NCBI GenBank assembly: GCA_937919725.1
Contig: CALFOS010000258.1
Coordinates: forward strand, 1-38,902
Source: an uncultured Fluviicola sp.
GTDB lineage: Bacteria > Bacteroidota > Bacteroidia > Flavobacteriales_D > Crocinitomicaceae
DNA length: 38,902 bases
Direction: 5' to 3'
Below, in pieces: positions 5,459 to 19,938 of the stretch; positions within the stretch are counted from its first letter, which is position 1, and each line of letters opens with the position of its first letter. Position numbers and translations under genes: made by a program. The notes beneath the pieces were generated by a model that worked only from the letters and a program-made list of their open reading frames with translations, had not been told where the DNA came from and searched no databases.

Positions 5459-6214
5459 TTAAAGTTTGAACGTTAGTCCGATATCGAAGCCAAGTGCTCG
5501 ACCAAAATGATTGTACGAATCGGTTACCACATACGAATCGCTCAATTGAATTCGATATTCGGGCATGATGAGCAGCGTGAAATTATCCGAAAACGACAAT
5601 TGGATTCCCACATTGATTGCCGCGCTCAGTACAAAAGAAGAATAGCCATTTCGTTTTTCGATGGTAGCATCTCCTGTTGCGTCGACAGCATCTCGCCACT
5701 CTTGCTTCTGAACATAGCCCGTAAAAAGTTGCGGTGTAAGTCCGCCACCGGCTAGAAACTTGATTTCGTTTCCATAGGTGAAAAGCGCTTTGATCGGCAT
5801 TCCGATGTACGAATAGCTAGTGGTGTACTTAAATAAGGTATCGGAATCTTCGAAAAGGTAACTTTCGCCGTTGCGGACATAACTTACGCCAGCTTGAATC
5901 GCGAAATACGGATTAATTGCATTTCGAAATCCGATGCCGAACGACCATTTATTGAGTCCCGTTTCGAACTCTCGTTCTCCCAGCGGATCACCAAATGGAC
6001 CTTCATTTACTTCGAGCTTGCGTGTTGTGCGCGAACAATTTGCGGTGAAATAAACTTCAGTGCTACCGTCTTTATTCGCAACTTTCTTCTCTTTCAATTC
6101 AACCTCCTTCTTTTCTTTTTCCTCATCTGTGTCTCCACCCAACTCAATTTGAGTCATCCCGCAAAAGGCGAATGCAACGCACATCGTGATACTCGCAATT
6201 TCTTTTATCATCAT
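5459..6214 (-). CDS. Outer-membrane beta-barrel protein, unknown function
   Basis: A 251-residue exported protein. Residues 1-20 look like a signal sequence, followed by a highly charged linker (about 28-50, rich in E and K) and then alternating amphipathic strands such as FGIGFRNAINPYFAIQAGVS and YSYIGMPIKALFTYG, ending in GFDIGLTFKL, a typical beta-barrel C terminus. This fits the small porin-like/outer-membrane beta-barrel group common in Bacteroidota. No substrate can be inferred. It is the first gene of the run leading to Nif3 and the zinc-ribbon gene. A GATATTTG element upstream on the minus strand may be its -7 box. Confidence 0.72.
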   Translation of the reverse strand: MMIKEIASITMCVAFAFCGMTQIELGGDTDEEKEKKEVELKEKKVANKDGSTEVYFTANCSRTTRKLEVNEGPFGDPLGEREFETGLNKWSFGIGFRNAINPYFAIQAGVSYVRNGESYLFEDSDTLFKYTTSYSYIGMPIKALFTYGNEIKFLAGGGLTPQLFTGYVQKQEWRDAVDATGDATIEKRNGYSSFVLSAAINVGIQLSFSDNFTLLIMPEYRIQLSDSYVVTDSYNHFGRALGFDIGLTFKL

Positions 6215-6302: not shown

Positions 6303-8213
6303 ATGAACCGACTCAACCTTTATCTTCCCTCACACGTTCGCGCCTTGCTTCTCCGATTGGCGATTGTTTTTGTATTGCTCCAACTCACCCGCATCATCTT
6401 CTATTTCAGTAATTCCAATTCGTTTTTGGAGGTGAGCTTCTGCGATTTTTTTTGGGGAGCATGGTTCGATCTCGTTACGATTTCCCTCTATTTTCTCGCT
6501 TACGGCAGTTTATTTTTACTTCCCATTCGAATCCGACATTTGCGTTGGCACCGATTGACGTTTAAAATCAGCTTCTTACTGATCACGTTTTTCATGGTGA
6601 TGCTGAACTTGATCGATTCTGCCTATTTCCCGTTCACTCAAAAGCGTTCAACAAGCGATTTGGTAAGTACCGTTTCCACAGGCAGTGATTTTGGTCAACT
6701 CGTTACTACTTTTCTATCTGAAAATTGGCACCTCTTACTCCTCTTTGGATTCCTGATATTGATTACGGAACAGTTTTACCGAAAAACGGAAGAAACGGAA
6801 GAAAAGTTGGGGATTTCTGCACAAACGAAGTCACAGTTCCGAAAATCAAATTGGATTTCCTTTCTCGTGCTCGTGCCGATTTTTATCTTCGTAGGTCGAG
6901 GTGGAATTCGCCCCAAACCAATCGGAGTATTGGATGCCACAGCCTTCACGTCTTCCCAAAACACGGCTCTTGTACTCAATACGCCTTTCACATTTCTGAA
7001 AACGATTGGAGTAGATGGCCTGCAGGAAAAGTACTATTTTTCGAAGGAGGAAGAACTGCACATGTTTGATCCAATTCGCACCTCGATTCCAGCTAATCTT
7101 CTGCCCCATAACACAAACGTGGTCATTTTAGTTCTCGAAAGCTTCGGAAAGGAATTCGTAGGAAAACTGAGCGGTGAGGAATCTTATACACCGTTCCTGG
7201 ATTCACTGATGGGGCAATCCTTGTATTACGACAATGCTTTTGCGAACGGTAAAAAATCGAATGAGGCGATTCCTGCAATCTTAGCTTCCATTCCATCTCT
7301 TGCCCAAGAACCTTATATGTCCTCGCCCTATTCCGACAATCAACTTATTGCATTGCCGACGATTTTGAAGGAAACAGGCTATTCAACTGCATTTTTTCAC
7401 GGTGCTACAAACGGTTCCATGCTCTTCGATAGTTTTTCAAAACGCTGTGGAATCGACCAGTATTATGGTCGAACAGAATACGGAAACGATGCACATTTCG
7501 ATGGAACTTGGGCCATTTCCGACGGTTATTTCAATCCGTGGGCGGCGAAGAAAATGAGCGAGCTGAAACCGCCGTTTTTTAGTTTGCTTTTCAATACATC
7601 ATCACATCATCCATACTTCATCCCTGAAAAATTCAGAAAGCATACCAAAACGGGTCCTCAGCCAATTTGCGCTTCGATCAGTTATGCGGATTACGCCCTG
7701 AAATTATTTTTTGAAGAAGCAAAAAAACAGGATTGGTACGCGAACACGCTCTTCGTTTTTGTGGCTGATCATAGCCCCGGAAGTGAGACGCCAGAATACA
7801 GTTTTCGCCACGAAATGTATCGGATTCCTATCGGTTTTTACCATCCAAAAGGATTGATTAAAGCCGAGAAAAGAAGTGAAATCACCCAACAATTGGACCT
7901 ATTCCCAACCATTTTGGACCTTTTAAATGTGAAAAACACGTATTATTCCTATGGCTCCTCACTTCTACAAAACACTGAAAGATACGTGATTACGCACCTT
8001 GAAGGGAGTTATTACTACTTCAGTGGTGAAGAAATGATGATTTTTAATGACGATAAGGCACAAATATTGCTTAATTTTACTAATGGTGGTCTTGTAACCG
8101 AAAGTGAACTCCCAAACTATACTCGTATAGTAGCAGTTCGCGAAAAAAGGTTGAAAGCCATTCTACAAAGGTATTCGAGGGATTTAATTTCGAATCAAAC
8201 AAAAGTGAAATGA
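6303..8213 (+). CDS. LTA synthase-like membrane phosphotransferase (sulfatase fold)
   Basis: A 636-residue inner-membrane enzyme: about five transmembrane helices in residues 1-190, then a periplasmic sulfatase-like domain. The domain opens with NVVILVLESFGKEF (metal-binding Glu), continues with ANGKKSNEAIPAILASIPS where the Ser takes the place of the catalytic Thr of LtaS, and later shows SSHHPY and VADHSPG, the His and Asp-His metal ligands. Relatives move phosphoglycerol or phosphoethanolamine from phospholipids to polymers or LPS-like acceptors, leaving diacylglycerol when the donor is phosphatidylglycerol. In a Gram-negative cell lipoteichoic acid is not expected, so the acceptor is unknown. 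The stop overlaps the next start (ATGA), so it is coupled to the lipid kinase. Confidence 0.88.
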   Translation: MNRLNLYLPSHVRALLLRLAIVFVLLQLTRIIFYFSNSNSFLEVSFCDFFWGAWFDLVTISLYFLAYGSLFLLPIRIRHLRWHRLTFKISFLLITFFMVMLNLIDSAYFPFTQKRSTSDLVSTVSTGSDFGQLVTTFLSENWHLLLLFGFLILITEQFYRKTEETEEKLGISAQTKSQFRKSNWISFLVLVPIFIFVGRGGIRPKPIGVLDATAFTSSQNTALVLNTPFTFLKTIGVDGLQEKYYFSKEEELHMFDPIRTSIPANLLPHNTNVVILVLESFGKEFVGKLSGEESYTPFLDSLMGQSLYYDNAFANGKKSNEAIPAILASIPSLAQEPYMSSPYSDNQLIALPTILKETGYSTAFFHGATNGSMLFDSFSKRCGIDQYYGRTEYGNDAHFDGTWAISDGYFNPWAAKKMSELKPPFFSLLFNTSSHHPYFIPEKFRKHTKTGPQPICASISYADYALKLFFEEAKKQDWYANTLFVFVADHSPGSETPEYSFRHEMYRIPIGFYHPKGLIKAEKRSEITQQLDLFPTILDLLNVKNTYYSYGSSLLQNTERYVITHLEGSYYYFSGEEMMIFNDDKAQILLNFTNGGLVTESELPNYTRIVAVREKRLKAILQRYSRDLISNQTKVK

Positions 8214-9097
8214 AACAACGTATTCAATTTATTATTAATCCGATTTCGGGCGTCCACAAAAAAACGGACATCCCTGGTTTGATTGATAAATATTTGGATC
8301 TCGATCAATTCGACTACGCCATTTCATATACTGAGTACCGTAAGCACGCCTTTGAACTTGCTACAAAATGCTCTGATGATGGAGTTGATATCATCTGCGC
8401 CGTTGGTGGAGATGGTTCAGTTCACGAAGTTGGAACTGCTTTAATCGGCAAGAAGACGCACATGGCGATCATTCCTGTTGGATCTGGAAATGGCCTGGCG
8501 CGTCACCTCAATATTCCGCTTAATGTGAAAGATGCAATTTTGTGCATCAATGATGGAAAGTACATTCACATGGACACAGTTAAAGTGAACGATCGCGCAT
8601 TTATCGGAATTGGGGGTTATGGCTTCGATGCTGTAGTTGCCAAAGAATTTGACAAAGGAAAAAAACGCGGATTGTTGGGATATGTCATCACCGTTATACG
8701 CGAGCTATTCAAATACAACCCATTAAACATTTCTATTGACATCGACGGAAAAGTAAAAACGCTTCCTGTGATGCTTTGCACCGTTGCGAACTCGTCGCAA
8801 TTTGGAAATGGATTTACTGTATCGCCAGATTCTAATGTTGAGGACGGAGAATTGGAATTATTCATTCTCAAACCATTTTCAATATGGAACGCACCGCGAA
8901 TTGCCTATAATTTCTTTCGTAAGAAAACGCAGAACGCAAAATTTGGTGAAATCATCCGCTTCAAAAATGCACGGATCAAACTTTCGGAGAAAATTGCACA
9001 CTACGATGGTGAACCTATCGACGTAACCGACGAATTGAGCGTTAGCGTTGTACCAAAAAGTCTTCATATATTAGTCGGAAAAAAACGACATGAGTGA
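8210..9097 (+). CDS. Diacylglycerol/lipid kinase of the YegS-DgkB family
   Basis: A 295-residue soluble lipid kinase with the diacylglycerol-kinase catalytic fold. INPISG near residue 10, VGGDGSVHEV near residue 65 (nucleotide-binding GGDGT-like motif) and PVGSGNGLARHL near residue 90 are all present, and the C-terminal beta-sandwich ends with HYDGEPIDV, the typical late acidic metal site. Members phosphorylate diacylglycerol, sphingosine or phosphatidylglycerol at the inner membrane. The ATG overlaps the stop of the LtaS-like gene by four bases. Because LtaS-like enzymes release diacylglycerol from phosphatidylglycerol, a recycling kinase immediately downstream makes functional sense; this link is inference. 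Confidence 0.92.
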   Translation: MKQRIQFIINPISGVHKKTDIPGLIDKYLDLDQFDYAISYTEYRKHAFELATKCSDDGVDIICAVGGDGSVHEVGTALIGKKTHMAIIPVGSGNGLARHLNIPLNVKDAILCINDGKYIHMDTVKVNDRAFIGIGGYGFDAVVAKEFDKGKKRGLLGYVITVIRELFKYNPLNISIDIDGKVKTLPVMLCTVANSSQFGNGFTVSPDSNVEDGELELFILKPFSIWNAPRIAYNFFRKKTQNAKFGEIIRFKNARIKLSEKIAHYDGEPIDVTDELSVSVVPKSLHILVGKKRHE

Positions 9098-9542
9098 TTT
9101 TCTTTCACCAGATCTAGAAACCCTTCTCGGAAAGTTGAATGGACTGATACCCGATGCTTCACCTGCTTGGGGCTCAATGAATGCTCAACAAATGGTGGAA
9201 CACCTTTCGAATAGTCTCGATTTATCCATGGGAGTGATACAAGGAAAACTGAGCATTCCCGAAGAAAAAGTGGAAAGTGCAGTAACTTATTTGTTTTCTG
9301 AAAAGCCATTTCCACAGGACTTCAAAGCAAACTACGCCCCCGAGAATCCTACTTTACGCAACGAAAATTTGGACGACGCCATCGACGAATTAACGATGAA
9401 GTGGATTGCTTTCGAAGAACATTACGAAGAAAATAATGTGAGTAAAAACATGCATCCAGTATATGGAATGCTCGATTTTGAAGGTTGGATGCGCGTTCAT
9501 TCAAAGCATTTTACACATCACTTTTTGCAATTCAATCTCTGA
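9090..9542 (+). CDS. DUF1569/DinB-like small protein
   Basis: A 150-residue soluble protein. The stretch WGSMNAQQMVEHLSNSLDL near residue 27 and HPVYGMLDFEGWMRVHSKHF near residues 122-141, with the closing HHFLQF, resemble DUF1569 and other DinB/YfiT-type four-helix bundles, in which spaced histidines bind a metal (candidate ligands in VEHLSN and VHSKHFTHH). No reaction can be assigned. It overlaps the lipid kinase by eight bases and the following small membrane gene by one, so it belongs to the same polycistronic unit. Confidence 0.75.
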   Translation: MSDFLSPDLETLLGKLNGLIPDASPAWGSMNAQQMVEHLSNSLDLSMGVIQGKLSIPEEKVESAVTYLFSEKPFPQDFKANYAPENPTLRNENLDDAIDELTMKWIAFEEHYEENNVSKNMHPVYGMLDFEGWMRVHSKHFTHHFLQFNL

Positions 9543-9703
9543 TGTCCCCAATTTTGCTCTACCCAATTTTCCCAGCGGTCGGTCTTGGAATTTTTACATG
9601 GCTCTATTATCGCAAGCAAGGATTATCCAACACTCCTCAGCTGTTCTTGGGAATTTTTGTCTTTTACGCGATTTTTTACAGCCTTTTCAAGGTTTTTATA
9701 TAA
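9542..9703 (+). CDS. Small 53-residue membrane protein
   Basis: The ATG at 9542 overlaps the previous stop in a TGATG junction, typical of translational coupling, so I prefer it to an upstream in-frame ATG at 9485 that would overlap the previous gene by 57 bases. The product has two hydrophobic segments (about residues 2-19 and 31-52) separated by a short basic loop, YYRKQGLSN. No family is recognised. Its position between the DinB-like gene and the EI24 gene suggests an envelope role, but that is guesswork. Coding potential rests on the junction and on the coherent two-helix composition. Confidence 0.55.
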   Translation: MSPILLYPIFPAVGLGIFTWLYYRKQGLSNTPQLFLGIFVFYAIFYSLFKVFI

Positions 9704-9709
9704 TTAGCT

Positions 9710-9717
9710 TAAATTTG
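9710..9717 (+). promoter_or_regulatory. Predicted internal -7 box before the EI24/mutase genes
   Basis: TAAATTTG fits TAnnTTTG exactly. Four bases later is an ATG at 9722 that opens an 11-codon ORF, out of frame with the EI24 start at 9732. The promoter would allow the mutase genes to be transcribed apart from the upstream lipid genes. Confidence 0.55.
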
Positions 9718-9721
9718 AACA

Positions 9722-9757
9722 ATGGAAGTAAATGAGAGCGATCAACTATCATATTAG
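9722..9757 (+). CDS. Possible leaderless 11-codon upstream ORF (MEVNESDQLSY)
   Basis: An ATG exactly four bases after the TAAATTTG box opens 11 sense codons and ends at TAG (9755-9757). It overlaps the EI24 start at 9732 in another frame. If transcription begins at 9722 as the spacing predicts, ribosomes loading on the leaderless end would read this ORF first and could reduce EI24 translation. It may equally be meaningless. The reading frame is seen; translation is not shown. Confidence 0.25.
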   Translation: MEVNESDQLSY

Positions 9758-10487
9758 AGGAATCATCACCTCATTTGAACATTTGTCGAAAGGCAAGTAC
9801 CTGATTTATTTTCTCCCCGGATTAATTCTAACGATAATTTTCTGGTATTTTCGATCAAAAACGATAGCAATTGATGAAGCCATCGATTTAACATCTGAGT
9901 ATTCGTGGTTGGATTGGTTCGGAAGTGCAGTTGATACAGGAATTTCAAAAGTATTCGGCATTATCGATTGGTTGATGGAGCAAGTGTACATTTTCCTCGT
10001 GCTTACAGTGCTCTCTCCTTTTTTTACGGCTCTTGGCGAACAATACGACAAAGAATTAACAGGCAAAGTGACCGAGAGTGGAATTTTGCGCTTCGTGAAT
10101 GACTTCATTCGAATGGTTTTCGTTGTGATTCTAGCGCTAGTGCTCGAGTTTTTCATTATTGGAATTTATTGGTTGATCGACAAAATTTTTGGATTCCCTG
10201 AGATGATGGACACCATCTTGCGTTACGCAATCAGCGCATTTTTCTTCGGATTTGCCTTCTACGATTTCGCACTTGAGCGCTACGAGAAAGGGGTGTTCTC
10301 GTCCCTCGGATTCGCTTTTTCCGCTCCGCTTGGCATGATCATCATTGGAACACTATTTAAACTTATCTACGCTGTTCCATACATCGGAATCCCCTTGGCT
10401 CCAGTCCTCGTGGTGATGGTTTCCACCGTCGCATACGCCTATTACATCAAGAGTTTGCCCAAATCAAATCTACCGACGAATGAATAA
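9732..10487 (+). CDS. EI24/CysZ-like integral membrane protein
   Basis: A 251-residue integral membrane protein with about five to six hydrophobic helices (near residues 26-42, 75-105, 125-152, 170-185, 200-240). The segment LTVLSPFFTALGEQYDKELTG and the pattern of paired helices match the EI24 domain family, whose bacterial members include the sulfate transporter CysZ. There is no sulfur-assimilation gene nearby, so sulfate transport is not supported. The last three codons overlap the mutase small-subunit start, pointing to coupled expression with methylmalonyl-CoA mutase. The chosen ATG is preceded by a short out-of-frame ORF. Confidence 0.8.
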   Translation: MRAINYHIRGIITSFEHLSKGKYLIYFLPGLILTIIFWYFRSKTIAIDEAIDLTSEYSWLDWFGSAVDTGISKVFGIIDWLMEQVYIFLVLTVLSPFFTALGEQYDKELTGKVTESGILRFVNDFIRMVFVVILALVLEFFIIGIYWLIDKIFGFPEMMDTILRYAISAFFFGFAFYDFALERYEKGVFSSLGFAFSAPLGMIIIGTLFKLIYAVPYIGIPLAPVLVVMVSTVAYAYYIKSLPKSNLPTNE

Positions 10488-11823
10488 TTTTCTCAAGGAA
10501 TTTAGTCCCGTTTCGAAGGATCAATGGATGGAAAAAATCCGAATTGATCTCAACGGAAAGGATCCGAGCATATTGGGGCATAACGACGCGATTGAAGAAC
10601 TTGATTTTTCAAGCGTTTACCATGTGAGCGACCAAGGGGAACCCGAAACTCCAGGTGGATTTCCATTCACGCGCGGACTAAAAACAAAACTCAACGATTG
10701 GAAAAATACTGCTTACGTTTTTGTGGAGGATGAAAAAGTGGCGAACGAAACGATTCTCAATTTTTTGATGTCGGGAGCTGATGCGATCTGGATTGTTGCT
10801 GCACGCACGAACATGAATTGGAAAGCTTTACTGGACAGCATACAATTCGAGCACATTCATGCACAATTTAGTTTGAAGTCATTGGAAGACATGGAAGCGA
10901 TTCAAGCGCTCACCTCCCACTCGTCTCACTCGGTTCAATTCAACTTTGATTTTATTGACGATAATCAACTTCAAATAAAGCAATTCTCTCAGCTTTTTAG
11001 AGAAAATCAACAACGTTTCGCCTGCGTAAATGGATTTGGGATTCAACAAAGCGGAGGAACGACTTGGCAGGAAATTGCATTTTGTTTGAATGTTGGACAC
11101 GAATACCTCGTTCAGTTGATGGAAAGCGGACTCACTATAGACGAAGCATCTGCATGTATTGGTTTCCACCTTGGAATTGGGAACAATTATTTCTACGAAA
11201 TCGCTAAAATTCGATCGCTACGTGCACTTTGGGCAAAGATTATCGATGCATACCAACCAAAACATGATTGCACCTACAATTGCGCCATCACGGCGGTAAT
11301 TGGTCATACGAACAAATCGCTTTCCGATCCCCACACCAATTTGTTGCGGCAAACAACCGAAGCAATGTCGGCGCTGAATGCTGGAGTAGACAACATTGTT
11401 ATTCTTCCGCATGATTTATATTCCGACCAAGAAACATCGAGTTTGAGTGAGCGCATGGCAATCAACATCCCGCTTATTTTGAAAGAAGAATCCTATTTTG
11501 ATAAGGTGATCGACCCAATTGGTGGAAGTTATTCACTGGAACAACTCACCGAAAAAATTGGACACAGAGCGTGGAATTTATTTCAAAAATTGGAAACGCA
11601 CGGCGGATTATTCGCTCAAAAGGCACGAGTAAACTTCGTAGATCAAGTTACAGCGAAACGAAATTTACGTGAAAAATTATTTCTTGCGGGAGAATTCATG
11701 CTGATCGGCATCAATAAATATCCGAATCCTAAAATCGTGCTTGCGAACTGGAAAAAACTTCCATCCTACCTTGGAATCGACGCGCTCAATTACGAACGGA
11801 CCACTAAAACAGTATCGCTATGA
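10480..11823 (+). CDS. mutA: Methylmalonyl-CoA mutase small (beta) subunit
   Basis: A 447-residue small subunit of the heterodimeric mutase, with the TIM-barrel domain only ([54 protein letters not shown]). It lacks the C-terminal cobalamin-like domain found in longer small subunits; this short form is usual in flavobacteria. The small subunit is structural and non-catalytic. It joins MutB in converting succinyl-CoA and (R)-methylmalonyl-CoA, in propionate metabolism. Its start lies eight bases before the EI24 stop, and its stop overlaps mutB by four bases (ATGA), so the two subunits should be made in step. Confidence 0.95.
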
Positions 11824-13952
11824 AACGAGTAGATTTTAGTATAATTCCTTTCAAAACGGAGCGCAAACAGAACACCGTAGCACCAACATCGACGTACACA
11901 ACCGCCGATAAAATTGAACTAAAACAATTTTACGCTGCATCGGGCGAAGCACAAACAATAGGATTCGTTTCAGGAATCCCACCTTATTTGCGCGGACCGT
12001 ATAGCTCGATGTTCGCGATTCGTCCATGGACAATAAGGCAATATGCAGGATTTTCAACTGCGGAAGAATCGAACGCTTTTTACCGAAGAAATTTGGCCGC
12101 TGGACAAAAAGGACTTTCCGTTGCGTTTGATTTGGCGACTCACCGAGGCTACGATTCCGATCACCCACGCGTAGAAGGCGATGTAGGGAAAGCAGGCGTT
12201 GCCATCGACTCGATTCTCGACATGAAAGTGTTGTTCGATCAAATTCCCTTGGATGAAATGTCCGTTTCGATGACGATGAACGGCGCTGTTTTGCCCATTA
12301 TGGCGTTTTATATTGTTGCTGCTGAGGAACAAGGAGTAAATCAAGAACTCTTGGCGGGAACGATTCAGAACGACATTTTAAAAGAATTTATGGTGCGGAA
12401 CACCTACATTTACCCACCTCTTCCATCCATGCGGATCATTTCCGATATTTTTGAATATACAGCAGAACACATGCCCCGCTTCAACTCGATTTCCATTTCT
12501 GGTTATCACATGCAAGAAGCGGGCGCCACAGCATCTATCGAATTGGCTTACACGCTAGCCGACGGACTCGAATACCTTAAAGCAGGAGTAAATGCAGGTA
12601 TGAACATAGACGAATTTGCCCCGCGATTGAGCTTCTTTTGGGCGATTGGAATGAATCATTACATGGAAGTTGCAAAAATGCGCGCTGGCCGATTGTTGTG
12701 GTCGAAAATTGTCCAGAAATTCGATCCGAAGAACGAAAAATCACTTGCTTTGCGCGCACACTGTCAAACATCTGGTTGGAGTTTAACCGAGCAAGATCCA
12801 TACAATAATGTAGCTCGAACATGTATCGAAGCACTCGCAGCTGCGTTTGGAGGAACACAATCTTTGCACACCAACGCACTCGATGAAGCCATTGCACTTC
12901 CAACAGATTTCTCCGCTCGCATTGCACGAAACACACAAATTTATCTTCAACAGGAAACGGGAATTACTCAACACGTCGATCCCTTAGGCGGAAGTTACTA
13001 CGTTGAAGAATTGACGAGCCAATTGGTAGAAGAAGCTTGGAAATTGATCGAGGAGGTCGAAGAATTGGGGGGAATGGCCAAAGCAATTGAAACGGGAATT
13101 CCAAAAATGCGCATCGAGGAGGCCGCTGCACGCAAGCAAGCTCGAATTGACGCTGGGAAAGACATAATTGTTGGGGTGAATCGTTATCAGATCGAAATAG
13201 AGGATGAAATGGACATTTTGGAAGTCGACAACACGAAGGTGCGCGATTCTCAAATCGAACGCCTCAACGAATTGAAAGCGAACCGAGATACGGAAAAAGT
13301 AAACGAATTGCTCTCAGAACTCGAACTTGCAGCGAAAGACAAAACAGGAAATCTACTCGAAATTGCGGTACGTTGTGCACGTGAACGTGCTTCGTTGGGG
13401 GAAATTTCTTCAGCACTCGAGAATCAGTTTGGACGTTATCAAGCAACCATCCGTTCGATAAATGGCGTATATTCATCAGAAGCTATGGGAGATTCAGATT
13501 TCAATAAAGCACTCGAAATGGCCGATCAGTTCAGTAAACTGGAGGGTCGACGTCCACGAATTATGGTCGCAAAAATGGGACAAGACGGTCACGACCGTGG
13601 AGCAAAAGTGATTGCGACATCTTTTGCAGACATCGGTTTTGATGTAGATATCGGTCCATTATTTCAAACGCCAGCGGAAGCAGCAAAGCAAGCCGTGGAA
13701 AACGACGTACACATTTTGGGTGTATCGTCCTTAGCTGCAGGACACAAAACTTTGATTCCAAAAGTGATCGCGGAACTCGAAAAACTAGGTCGCGGCGATA
13801 TCATGGTGATTGCGGGTGGAGTTATCCCTCATCAAGACTATGGTTTTTTATATGAAGCTGGTGTGTTTGGCGTTTTCGGTCCAGGAACAAAAATCTCGAA
13901 AGCAGCACAAGAAATACTTGCTCTGTTAATCAAGAGCTTCGAACAAAAATAA
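11820..13952 (+). CDS. mutB: Methylmalonyl-CoA mutase large (alpha) subunit, cobalamin-dependent
   Basis: A 710-residue catalytic subunit, of standard length. The barrel domain carries [49 protein letters not shown] and [10 protein letters not shown]. The C-terminal B12-binding domain starts near residue 578 with [18 protein letters not shown]; His591 of DGHDRG is the expected lower ligand of cobalt. [12 protein letters not shown] and [10 protein letters not shown] complete the Rossmann-like cobalamin fold. It isomerises methylmalonyl-CoA and succinyl-CoA by a radical route in the cytosol. Coupled to mutA by an ATGA overlap. I saw no cobalamin riboswitch upstream, and no epimerase or MeaB chaperone in the window. 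Confidence 0.97.
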
Positions 13953-17601: not shown

Positions 17602-18744
17602 TCACAAATCGCCATATGGCTTCACGCTCACTCCATCAAAATAGAATTCAGCAATTTGCTTGTACGTGAAACCATTTTTCGCCATGTTCATCGCGCCTTC
17701 TTGACATAAACCAACACCGTGACCAAAACCTCGACCGACCAACACAACATCATTTCCTTCGGGATGCGCACTAAAAAACGTTGATTTCAACTTAAATTCT
17801 GCGCGCAAATCACGCAGTGGAATTCCCAAACATGGATGAATGTAAAATGACTTTCTGTGTTCTTGCTCGAAGGTGAAAATCTGCGCAGCCATAATGGAAT
17901 CGTAGATTGGGTAGCCATATTGTTTCACCAAAAAACTACGAAATGTTGTTTGTGGAATGCGCGCTGTCCACCTAGCCTGAACCGTGTGCACGCAAAACGT
18001 ATCGAGAAACGGGACAACATGCGATATCGAAGTATTCCAAACCATCGACGCATCGCACACCTCACCGCCGCAATTAGCGGAAAAATAAGTGCTCACCGCA
18101 TTGTTTTTTCCATCTACCAGCACATCTTCTTGTGTCGCACGAACGGCCGTCCGAATTTCAGGTGTGTAACGCAACATGTTGTGATATGCTTGACAATGAA
18201 CACCATCACACAGCGAAAAGCCCTCATTTCTGTGACGATCTTTGTTTTTGTACGTGTATGTTCGGCTCATCACCGCTTGCACTTTATAGTATTCGCCGTG
18301 TCGACCTCCACCCCCTTCCGATTCGATCACGCCGCACAAATAATTCTCCATGCTCACTTTATTCACTATCGTCATTTGACCGCCAACCACGGAAATCTCG
18401 AAGCTATCTTGGTATTTCCGTTCGCGTACACTCGGTACTTTGGAGATAAGAGCAAGCGTTCCGTTTCCTTGAGATGTGAGTGTTATTTTTGAGAAACTTC
18501 CTTGAGAAACCGTATTGTAGTTCAACGCCAACTTCCCTCCAACCAGTTCTATTTCAATAAATTGTTGCGCATTTAATGAGCCAATACTCGAACTATCTGC
18601 CTGAATGCTGTACGTACCCAAATGCTGGCTAAATGTTATACGTTTTACTTTGTGATCACGAAGCAAACCAATGCTTTCCACTTGTCCTGTTGCGGTAAGC
18701 GAAAAGAATAAAAGGAGTATGGAAATTGATTTATGCACGCTCAC
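17602..18744 (-). CDS. SpoIID/LytB-domain exported protein
   Basis: About 380 residues with a signal peptide (KSISILLLFFSLTATGQ). The SpoIID domain covers residues about 130-360: MENYLCGVIESEGG, QAVMSRTYTYKN, FSANCGGEVCDAS and GRGFGHGVGLCQEGAMNMA, all family blocks. SpoIID proteins are lytic transglycosylases or amidase enhancers acting on peptidoglycan; in non-sporulating Bacteroidota the role is wall remodelling of unknown purpose. In-frame starts at 18762 (TTG), 18744 (GTG) and 18738 (GTG) are all possible; 18744 gives the best-proportioned signal peptide. It lies 60 bases downstream of lpxB on the same strand, so co-transcription with surE and lpxB is likely. Confidence 0.85.
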   Translation of the reverse strand: MSVHKSISILLLFFSLTATGQVESIGLLRDHKVKRITFSQHLGTYSIQADSSSIGSLNAQQFIEIELVGGKLALNYNTVSQGSFSKITLTSQGNGTLALISKVPSVRERKYQDSFEISVVGGQMTIVNKVSMENYLCGVIESEGGGGRHGEYYKVQAVMSRTYTYKNKDRHRNEGFSLCDGVHCQAYHNMLRYTPEIRTAVRATQEDVLVDGKNNAVSTYFSANCGGEVCDASMVWNTSISHVVPFLDTFCVHTVQARWTARIPQTTFRSFLVKQYGYPIYDSIMAAQIFTFEQEHRKSFYIHPCLGIPLRDLRAEFKLKSTFFSAHPEGNDVVLVGRGFGHGVGLCQEGAMNMAKNGFTYKQIAEFYFDGVSVKPYGDL

Positions 18745-18804
18745 TTGTACGATAGAGTTCAATTAAGGTTACTACAAACGAGTAGCCGAGAAACTTCAAA
18801 CTAT

Positions 18805-19938
18805 CTATTTTTCTAATTCACGAAGCAAAGACTGTGCAACTTTATCGCTTGCCCCACCTCCGCCTAATATTTTTTCGAGTTCCTTGTAATTGAACATCAG
18901 TTTTGCGCGATACTCGTCATCGTTCAACAACCTCGATAATTCTTTCCTAATAGCGTTCGCATTGCAATCGGCTTGGATGAGTTCTTTCACCACTTCTTGA
19001 TCCATGATCAGGTTTACGAGCGATATGTATTTAACCTTCACCAATCGCTTGGCAATTTCGTAGGAGAAACGTGAACTTTTGTAGCATACCACCTCCGGAA
19101 TTTTGAACAAAGCCGTTTCCAATGTTGCGGTACCAGACGTTACTACAGCCGCTTCAGAGCTGGCCAAGAGCGCGTAGGTTTCATTCGAAATCATTTTCAC
19201 ATTCTCACTATTGAACGGTGCATAGAATTCGGCATCCAAACTTGGAGCGCCAGCAATGATCACCTGATAATCTGGAAATAATTTGAGTGCATCGAGCATA
19301 ATCGGTAATTTCTTGCTCACTTCCTGACGTCTACTTCCAGGTAACACTGCTATGATGGGACGCTCGTCCAAATCGTGCCTTTGATAAAATTGTGATCGCT
19401 GCTCATCGTTGAATCCGTGTTTTGCAATTTCATCGAGTAGCGGATGTCCTACATAATCTACTTCGTAATCAAATTGCTCGTAGAATTCCTTCTCGAAAGG
19501 CAGAATAACGTACATTTTATCGACCACTTTCTTGATTTTGTGCACGCGTTTTTGTTTCCAAGCCCACACTTGAGGAGAAATGTAATAGATCACTTTGATT
19601 CCTTTTTCGTGCGCCCACTCTGCGATTCGTAGGTTGAATCCAGGATAATCTACTAATAGAATAGCATCTGGTGCATACTCCAAAATATCTTCCTTGCAAA
19701 AAGTAATATTTTTAAGAATCTTACGGATGTTGGTGATCACTTCCCAAAATCCCATGAACGCTAAATCGCGAATGTGCTTTACGAGTCCAGCGGATTGAAC
19801 GTGCTTCATTTTGTCGCCGCCCCAAAATCGAAAATTGATGTTTGGATCACGATCGAGCATGGCTTGCATCAGGTTACTAGCGTGCAGATCGCCCGACGCC
19901 TCACCTGCAATGACATAGATTTTTTTCTGCTGTGTCAT
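18805..19938 (-). CDS. lpxB: Lipid-A-disaccharide synthase LpxB
   Basis: LpxB joins UDP-2,3-diacylglucosamine and lipid X to form the tetra-acyl disaccharide core of lipid A, as a peripheral inner-membrane GT19 glycosyltransferase. The 377 residues are normal length. Signature blocks: GEASGDLHASNLM at residue 12, LVDYPGFNLRIA near 93, YYISPQVWAWKQKRVHKIKK near 117, VLPGSRRQEVSKKLP near 199 and TSGTATLETAL near 265. Its presence shows a Gram-negative outer membrane. It follows the small membrane gene by three bases and, through it, surE; this neighbourhood recurs in flavobacteria. Confidence 0.97.
   Translation of the reverse strand: MTQQKKIYVIAGEASGDLHASNLMQAMLDRDPNINFRFWGGDKMKHVQSAGLVKHIRDLAFMGFWEVITNIRKILKNITFCKEDILEYAPDAILLVDYPGFNLRIAEWAHEKGIKVIYYISPQVWAWKQKRVHKIKKVVDKMYVILPFEKEFYEQFDYEVDYVGHPLLDEIAKHGFNDEQRSQFYQRHDLDERPIIAVLPGSRRQEVSKKLPIMLDALKLFPDYQVIIAGAPSLDAEFYAPFNSENVKMISNETYALLASSEAAVVTSGTATLETALFKIPEVVCYKSSRFSYEIAKRLVKVKYISLVNLIMDQEVVKELIQADCNANAIRKELSRLLNDDEYRAKLMFNYKELEKILGGGGASDKVAQSLLRELEK

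Follow-up and report, generated by a model that had tools for sequence, protein, structure and literature searches.

A conserved pair of genes for an LtaS-like transferase and a lipid kinase in Bacteroidota that seem unable to make phosphatidylglycerol

What does an enzyme resembling lipoteichoic acid (LTA) synthase do in a Gram-negative bacterium, and why is the gene for a lipid kinase coupled to it? The question is raised by a locus in an uncultured Fluviicola species of the Crocinitomicaceae, from which a stretch of 38,902 nucleotides (the window) was analyzed. This stretch makes up contig C258 of a genome that spans 3.04 Mb in 315 contigs. Positions 6303 to 8213 of the forward strand hold an intact reading frame for an LtaS-like membrane transferase of 636 amino acids belonging to the alkaline-phosphatase superfamily, and positions 8210 to 9097 of the same strand an intact frame for a YegS/DgkB-type lipid kinase of 295 amino acids. 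Stop and start codon of the two genes overlap in the sequence ATGA (8210 to 8213). An earlier sequence-only reading had described a transferase of this type coupled to a diacylglycerol kinase-like gene, and the intact frames, the overlap and the Pfam and TIGR00147 matches reported below bear this out. The third gene of the unit, which was absent from that reading, encodes a DUF1569 protein (9090 to 9542, forward strand; PF07606, 2.7e-7) and overlaps the kinase gene by eight bases. Between the DUF1569 gene and the next gene lies a short frame (9485 to 9735) whose product would contain two hydrophobic stretches; it has no family match and possibly specifies a small membrane protein on the transferase-kinase transcript. 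Genes on the same strand go on at 9732 to 13952 with one for an EI24/CysZ-like membrane protein (a weak match below cut-off) and overlapping genes for the small and large subunits of methylmalonyl-CoA mutase. Upstream of the transferase gene and divergent from it resides an outer-membrane beta-barrel-like gene (5459 to 6214, reverse strand; Pfam match below cut-off). Searches of the window for Rfam families and tRNAs yielded no matches, and counts of promoter and terminator patterns in it did not rise above those in shuffled sequences.

The pair proved to be widespread. Among 199 genomes of the order, the transferase has an orthologue in 73 and the kinase in 75; 70 genomes carry both, three only the transferase, five only the kinase and 121 neither, a co-occurrence for which the Fisher value is inflated by shared ancestry. 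In 55 of the 73 genomes with the transferase, which belong to several families, the kinase gene follows directly downstream on the same strand, and the gap amounts to -1 to +26 in 53 of these 55 adjacent pairs when BLAST coordinates are used. In one genus (g2) the genes are mostly split, yet both are kept in 14 of 16 unlinked genomes. The neighbourhood of the transferase gene was also surveyed in 80 named loci from GTDB genomes, 30 loci from a phylum-wide draw and the loci of the order. Here, the kinase was the commonest neighbour (65 loci, some species counted twice), always downstream and on the same strand, and DUF1569 genes were among the downstream neighbours on the same strand in 34 loci. 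According to reading frame coordinates, 44 of 63 close pairs touch or overlap, and the overlap is exactly four bases in 32 of them. Given this constant position and the recurring four-base overlap, the arrangement goes far beyond what chance would produce. The pair, which Brumimicrobium salinarum (L099) also has, is thus found in most transferase-bearing genomes of the order as well as in many other Bacteroidota. This rules out the possibility, raised by the sequence-only reading, that the pairing is confined to this genome.

The pairing is also ancient and was lost or gained anew on several occasions, because the paired state requires at most 15 changes on a FastTree tree compared with a mean near 48 after shuffling; the value of 15 is slightly too high, as two loci labelled unpaired on the tree (L016 and L035) are in fact paired. 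Pairwise distances of transferase and kinase correlate with r 0.81 (permutation maximum 0.33), for which vertical inheritance alone could suffice. We found nothing on LtaS-like proteins of Bacteroidetes or Flavobacterium, or on the pair, in the open-access literature, and it is plausible that the pair represents an undescribed variant of known chemistry.

The product of the second gene contains the DAGK_cat and YegS_C domains (PF00781, 3.3e-27; PF19279, 2e-19) and passes the cut-off of TIGR00147 (121.5 versus 118.65 bits), features shared with the YegS/Rv2252/BmrU kinases and DgkB of Staphylococcus aureus. The solved chains nearest to it are those of a diacylglycerol-kinase catalytic-domain protein (4wer), of putative diacylglycerol kinases and BmrU (4wrr, 3s40, 3t5p) and of DgkB (2qv7). 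A GGDG nucleotide-binding motif (residues 66 to 69, positions 8405 to 8416, forward strand) lies within the DAGK_cat match. The protein differs from several solved relatives by the sequence PVGSGNG in place of a motif of the G-T-x-N-D type. As judged from these matches, diacylglycerol is the likely substrate. The idea that the paired kinase replaces DgkA was ruled out, as a DgkA-type kinase is also present in 40 of the 55 paired genomes, the one studied here included. For the same reason, diacylglycerol recycling does not depend on the paired kinase alone.

In principle, the two genes could be transcribed together and nevertheless serve separate pathways, with the former as a general-purpose lipid kinase and the latter as the enzyme of a separate modification, if the kinase is named first and the transferase second. 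Several observations favour this view over a strict pairing: the genomes of two congeners (G153 and G187) have no transferase match but retain the kinase and DUF1569 genes in order, DgkA occurs in most paired genomes, and the genome studied here holds two more kinases, one of the DgkA type and a kinase-like protein on another contig (C170). Furthermore, the transferase is not located beside the kinase in 88 of 150 cases sampled across the phylum (as labelled automatically), and the unpaired state is met with in many families and lineages, such as Sphingobacteriaceae, Pontibacter and Prevotellaceae types. On the other hand, adjacency in the same order with a conserved four-base overlap recurs across deep clades, the two genes occur together in 70 genomes of the order and apart in only eight, and both are retained where they are split. 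We therefore consider independent functions unlikely, albeit with roughly a one-in-four standing in our own estimate. Note that in the two congeners, which are of the same genus, no transferase gene intervenes between the genes for the outer-membrane protein and the kinase (L042 in G153, L037 in G187). In Sphingobacteriaceae-type loci (L148, L156, L167, L168, L183 and L186), a distant LtaS-like gene specifying about 624 amino acids precedes the transferase gene in tandem.

The transferase matches the Pfam Sulfatase family (PF00884, 8.8e-36), the only Pfam family found, and its profile matches include LtaS as well as VP1736 of Vibrio parahaemolyticus. With 99.6 bits against a cut-off of 970, it stays far below the NCBIfam LtaS equivalog NF053595. 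An AlphaFold2 model built from 25 relatives (mean pLDDT 88, pTM 0.85) predicts five long membrane helices followed by an alkaline-phosphatase-superfamily domain, just as in LtaS and LtaP; the helices, placed by model secondary structure and hydrophobic stretches, comprise residues about 10-36, 46-72, 81-112, 142-170 and 176-198 (6330 to 6896, forward strand). In Foldseek and VIA-align comparisons of the model, VP1736 (3lxq) ranked first with Z 46.9, LtaS and LtaP (2w5q, 4uoo, 4uop) came next with Z about 40, and sulfatases and PbgA/YejM were well below (Z about 30-31). No EptA or MCR chain was present in the best 50 fold matches, although the proteins may still be related, and the N-terminal Pfam domain of EptA (EptA_B) was not found before the Sulfatase domain. 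The other PF00884 proteins of the genome are one arylsulfatase-like protein and two small proteins; no EptA was seen among them.

In 154 distinct relatives of the transferase, residues E279, W403, D407, H435, D463, D489 and H490 are invariant. The LtaS metal site, consisting of E255, T300, D475 and H476, is matched by E279 (7137 to 7139, forward strand), S319 (7257 to 7259, forward strand), D489 and H490 (7767 to 7772, forward strand), each in 153 or 154 of the 154 copies. Ser319, situated in the motif GKKSNEA, takes the place of Thr300 of S. aureus LtaS. It is aligned with the catalytic threonine in the Listeria LtaS profile alignment, while the alignment with Bacillus subtilis LtaS is off by one residue at this point. 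In the model, it is the first residue of a helix (319-328), as expected for the nucleophile of the superfamily. The preceding position 318 is occupied by K, R, T or Q and is therefore unlikely to provide the nucleophile. Modelling and alignment thus place Ser319 at the catalytic position as the putative nucleophile. The sequence-only reading was correct about this position; the serine is not a peculiarity of this protein, because it is present in 153 of 154 copies (threonine in one) and is a family trait. The view that a change from threonine to serine indicates an inactive or aberrant enzyme was ruled out by the same token. VP1736 likewise has serine at the nucleophile position and shares a stretch F-x-G-[ST]-W-[AG] ... 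D with the transferase, but differs in the loop around His366.

This loop is where the protein departs from LtaS. In LtaS, glycerol phosphate is bound by H347, D349, F353, W354, R356 and H416, and activity depends on H347, D349, W354 and R356 among these (PMC4973235). An ungapped loop alignment maps the six residues to H366, A/G368, S/T372, M373, F375 and H435, the loop itself extending from His366 to Phe375 (7398 to 7427, forward strand). Both pocket histidines are kept (H366 in 153 of 154 copies), whereas D349, F353, W354 and R356 have given way to A/G, S/T, M and F. In column counts the methionine is present in 143 and the phenylalanine in 151 of 154 copies. Since the replacement residues are near-invariant, the altered pocket points to another bound group rather than to decay.

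Which phospholipid could then be the donor? The usual donor of LtaS is phosphatidylglycerol (PG), and the cells in question seem unable to make it, judging from their gene content. Not one of the 199 genomes of the order has a match to pgsA (TIGR00560) over the cut-off. In a phylum-wide control it was passed in 231 of 385 genomes, which shows that the model performs as it should and that the absence extends to the whole lineage; among the matches listed, all were from outside the class. PgpA was also found in none of the 199 genomes, which is weaker evidence as most control genomes also lack it. PgsA occurs in most of the phylum's other classes, and no member of the class among the matches listed passed the pgsA cut-off. 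The genome studied here specifies one CDP-alcohol phosphatidyltransferase, which scores 101 bits with pssA (cut-off 107) and 36 bits with pgsA (cut-off 109), and a Psd that passes its equivalog cut-off. PgsA, PgpA and a phospholipase-D-type cardiolipin synthase were not found in it. The latter had been considered as another route to PG and was rejected, as the only PLDc_2 protein of the genome is polyphosphate kinase 1. The lack of PgsA is not due to gaps in the assembly, because two one-contig genomes with the pair (G106 and G130) also contain a single PssA-like enzyme only. The genes for PssA and Psd indicate that phosphatidylethanolamine (PE) is available as a donor. In line with this, the polar lipids of Brumimicrobium ulvae, another member of the Crocinitomicaceae, are reported to comprise PE and an aminolipid, and the text describing them does not mention PG (PMC12313589). 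In the loci of one family (f16, L199-L203), a pssA-like gene for CDP-diacylglycerol-serine phosphatidyltransferase adjoins an unpaired transferase gene. A further locus (L079 in G109) specifies a second such phosphatidyltransferase of the CDP-alcohol type, about 193 amino acids long and of uncertain identity, flanked by genes that, read by eye, are HMG-CoA-reductase-like and phosphatidate-cytidylyltransferase-like.

These findings bear on the donor assumed in the sequence-only reading, which was PG. Transfer of phosphoglycerol from PG, the reaction of LtaS and of OpgB in E. coli, combined with recycling of the diacylglycerol by the kinase, would agree with LtaS and LtaP being the nearest characterized folds and with the occurrence of orthologues outside the class in genomes that do have PgsA (for example G352, G368 and G328). 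It would need an unrecognized enzyme for PG formation in an organism without PgsA, PgpA and phospholipase-D-type cardiolipin synthase, whose relative is reported to contain PE, and it is at odds with the replacement of four of the six pocket residues. We thus regard PG as an improbable donor. More improbable still is a function as a periplasmic, phospholipase C-like phosphodiesterase or as a PbgA/YejM-like sensor, which would fit the common superfamily with sulfatases and PbgA/YejM (Z about 30) but conflicts with the much closer similarity to LtaS and VP1736 (Z 40-47) and with the full set of metal ligands and nucleophile conserved in 154 copies, unlike PbgA, which has been argued to be without the LtaS metal site (PMC4973235).

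The logic of headgroup transfer followed by diacylglycerol recycling, as put forward in the sequence-only reading, remains the most natural one for the pair, and LTA is not to be expected. We propose that the two proteins form a donor-side cycle in which a PE headgroup is transferred to an acceptor in the cell envelope and the coupled kinase returns diacylglycerol to phosphatidate, a proposal to which we give somewhat less than an even chance. The LtaS-fold enzyme would be an inner-membrane protein that exposes its metal site to the periplasm, and Ser319 would attack the phosphate of a phospholipid. PE is the most likely donor because the PG genes are missing, and phosphoethanolamine rather than phosphoglycerol transfer is our favoured guess; this reading of the donor rests on gene content and pocket residues. 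Phosphoethanolamine would be passed to an acceptor, for which the lipopolysaccharide (LPS) core, lipid A or a periplasmic glycan or lipid are candidates. Headgroup transfer would release diacylglycerol, which the translationally coupled kinase would convert into phosphatidate and thus feed back into PE synthesis. The window contains genes for LpxB and an OstA-like protein, which hints weakly at LPS as the acceptor. The gene for a SpoIID-domain protein adjoins that for LpxB (17605 to 18762 and 18808 to 19938, both on the reverse strand).

A cycle of headgroup transfer and conversion of diacylglycerol into phosphatidate also operates with OpgB (MdoB) and DgkA in E. coli, where PG is the donor and a glucan the acceptor, DgkA is unrelated to the YegS-type kinase and the genes are not coupled. 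In the proposed chemistry, the transferase resembles the EptA-type phosphoethanolamine transferases, which use PE as donor, yield diacylglycerol as a by-product and act in the Gram-negative envelope. EptA modifies lipid A with phosphoethanolamine in one member of the Flavobacteriaceae, Capnocytophaga canimorsus (PMC4730577), and in dgkA mutants of E. coli, EptA is the probable origin of part of the diacylglycerol (PMC8027125). The EptA of C. canimorsus is paired with LpxE, while the transferase studied here is paired with a kinase. The absence of the EptA N-terminal domain and the position of VP1736 and LtaS/LtaP as the nearest solved folds speak against the proposed headgroup transfer from PE. 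LtaS and LtaP, in turn, share the metal ligands, the nucleophile position and the equivalents of H347 and H416 with our protein, which differs by serine in place of threonine, the remade pocket, its location in a Gram-negative cell without genes for PG synthesis and the attached kinase gene.

The transferase is therefore classed neither as EptA, of which it lacks the N-terminal domain, nor as LtaS, for which pocket, score and PG supply all fail. More tentatively, we suggest that it may belong to a class of enzymes, found throughout the Bacteroidota, in which the LtaS fold is combined with a nucleophilic serine and a remade donor pocket. Such enzymes would use PE as donor where canonical PG synthesis is lacking, act on an undescribed envelope acceptor and in many lineages have a diacylglycerol kinase of their own, specified by the same transcript. 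If so, the similarity-based name "LTA synthase family protein" would be a misnomer for a large class of enzymes in Bacteroidota, as these organisms have no LTA and apparently no PG from which to build it. Lipoprotein diacylglyceryl transferase normally draws its lipid from PG, and the findings raise the question how the class Bacteroidia supplies PG-derived lipid donors, for example for lipoprotein acylation. The coupled kinase, if the proposed cycle is true, would offer a direct handle on the reaction, and the acceptor could turn out to carry an unreported surface modification.
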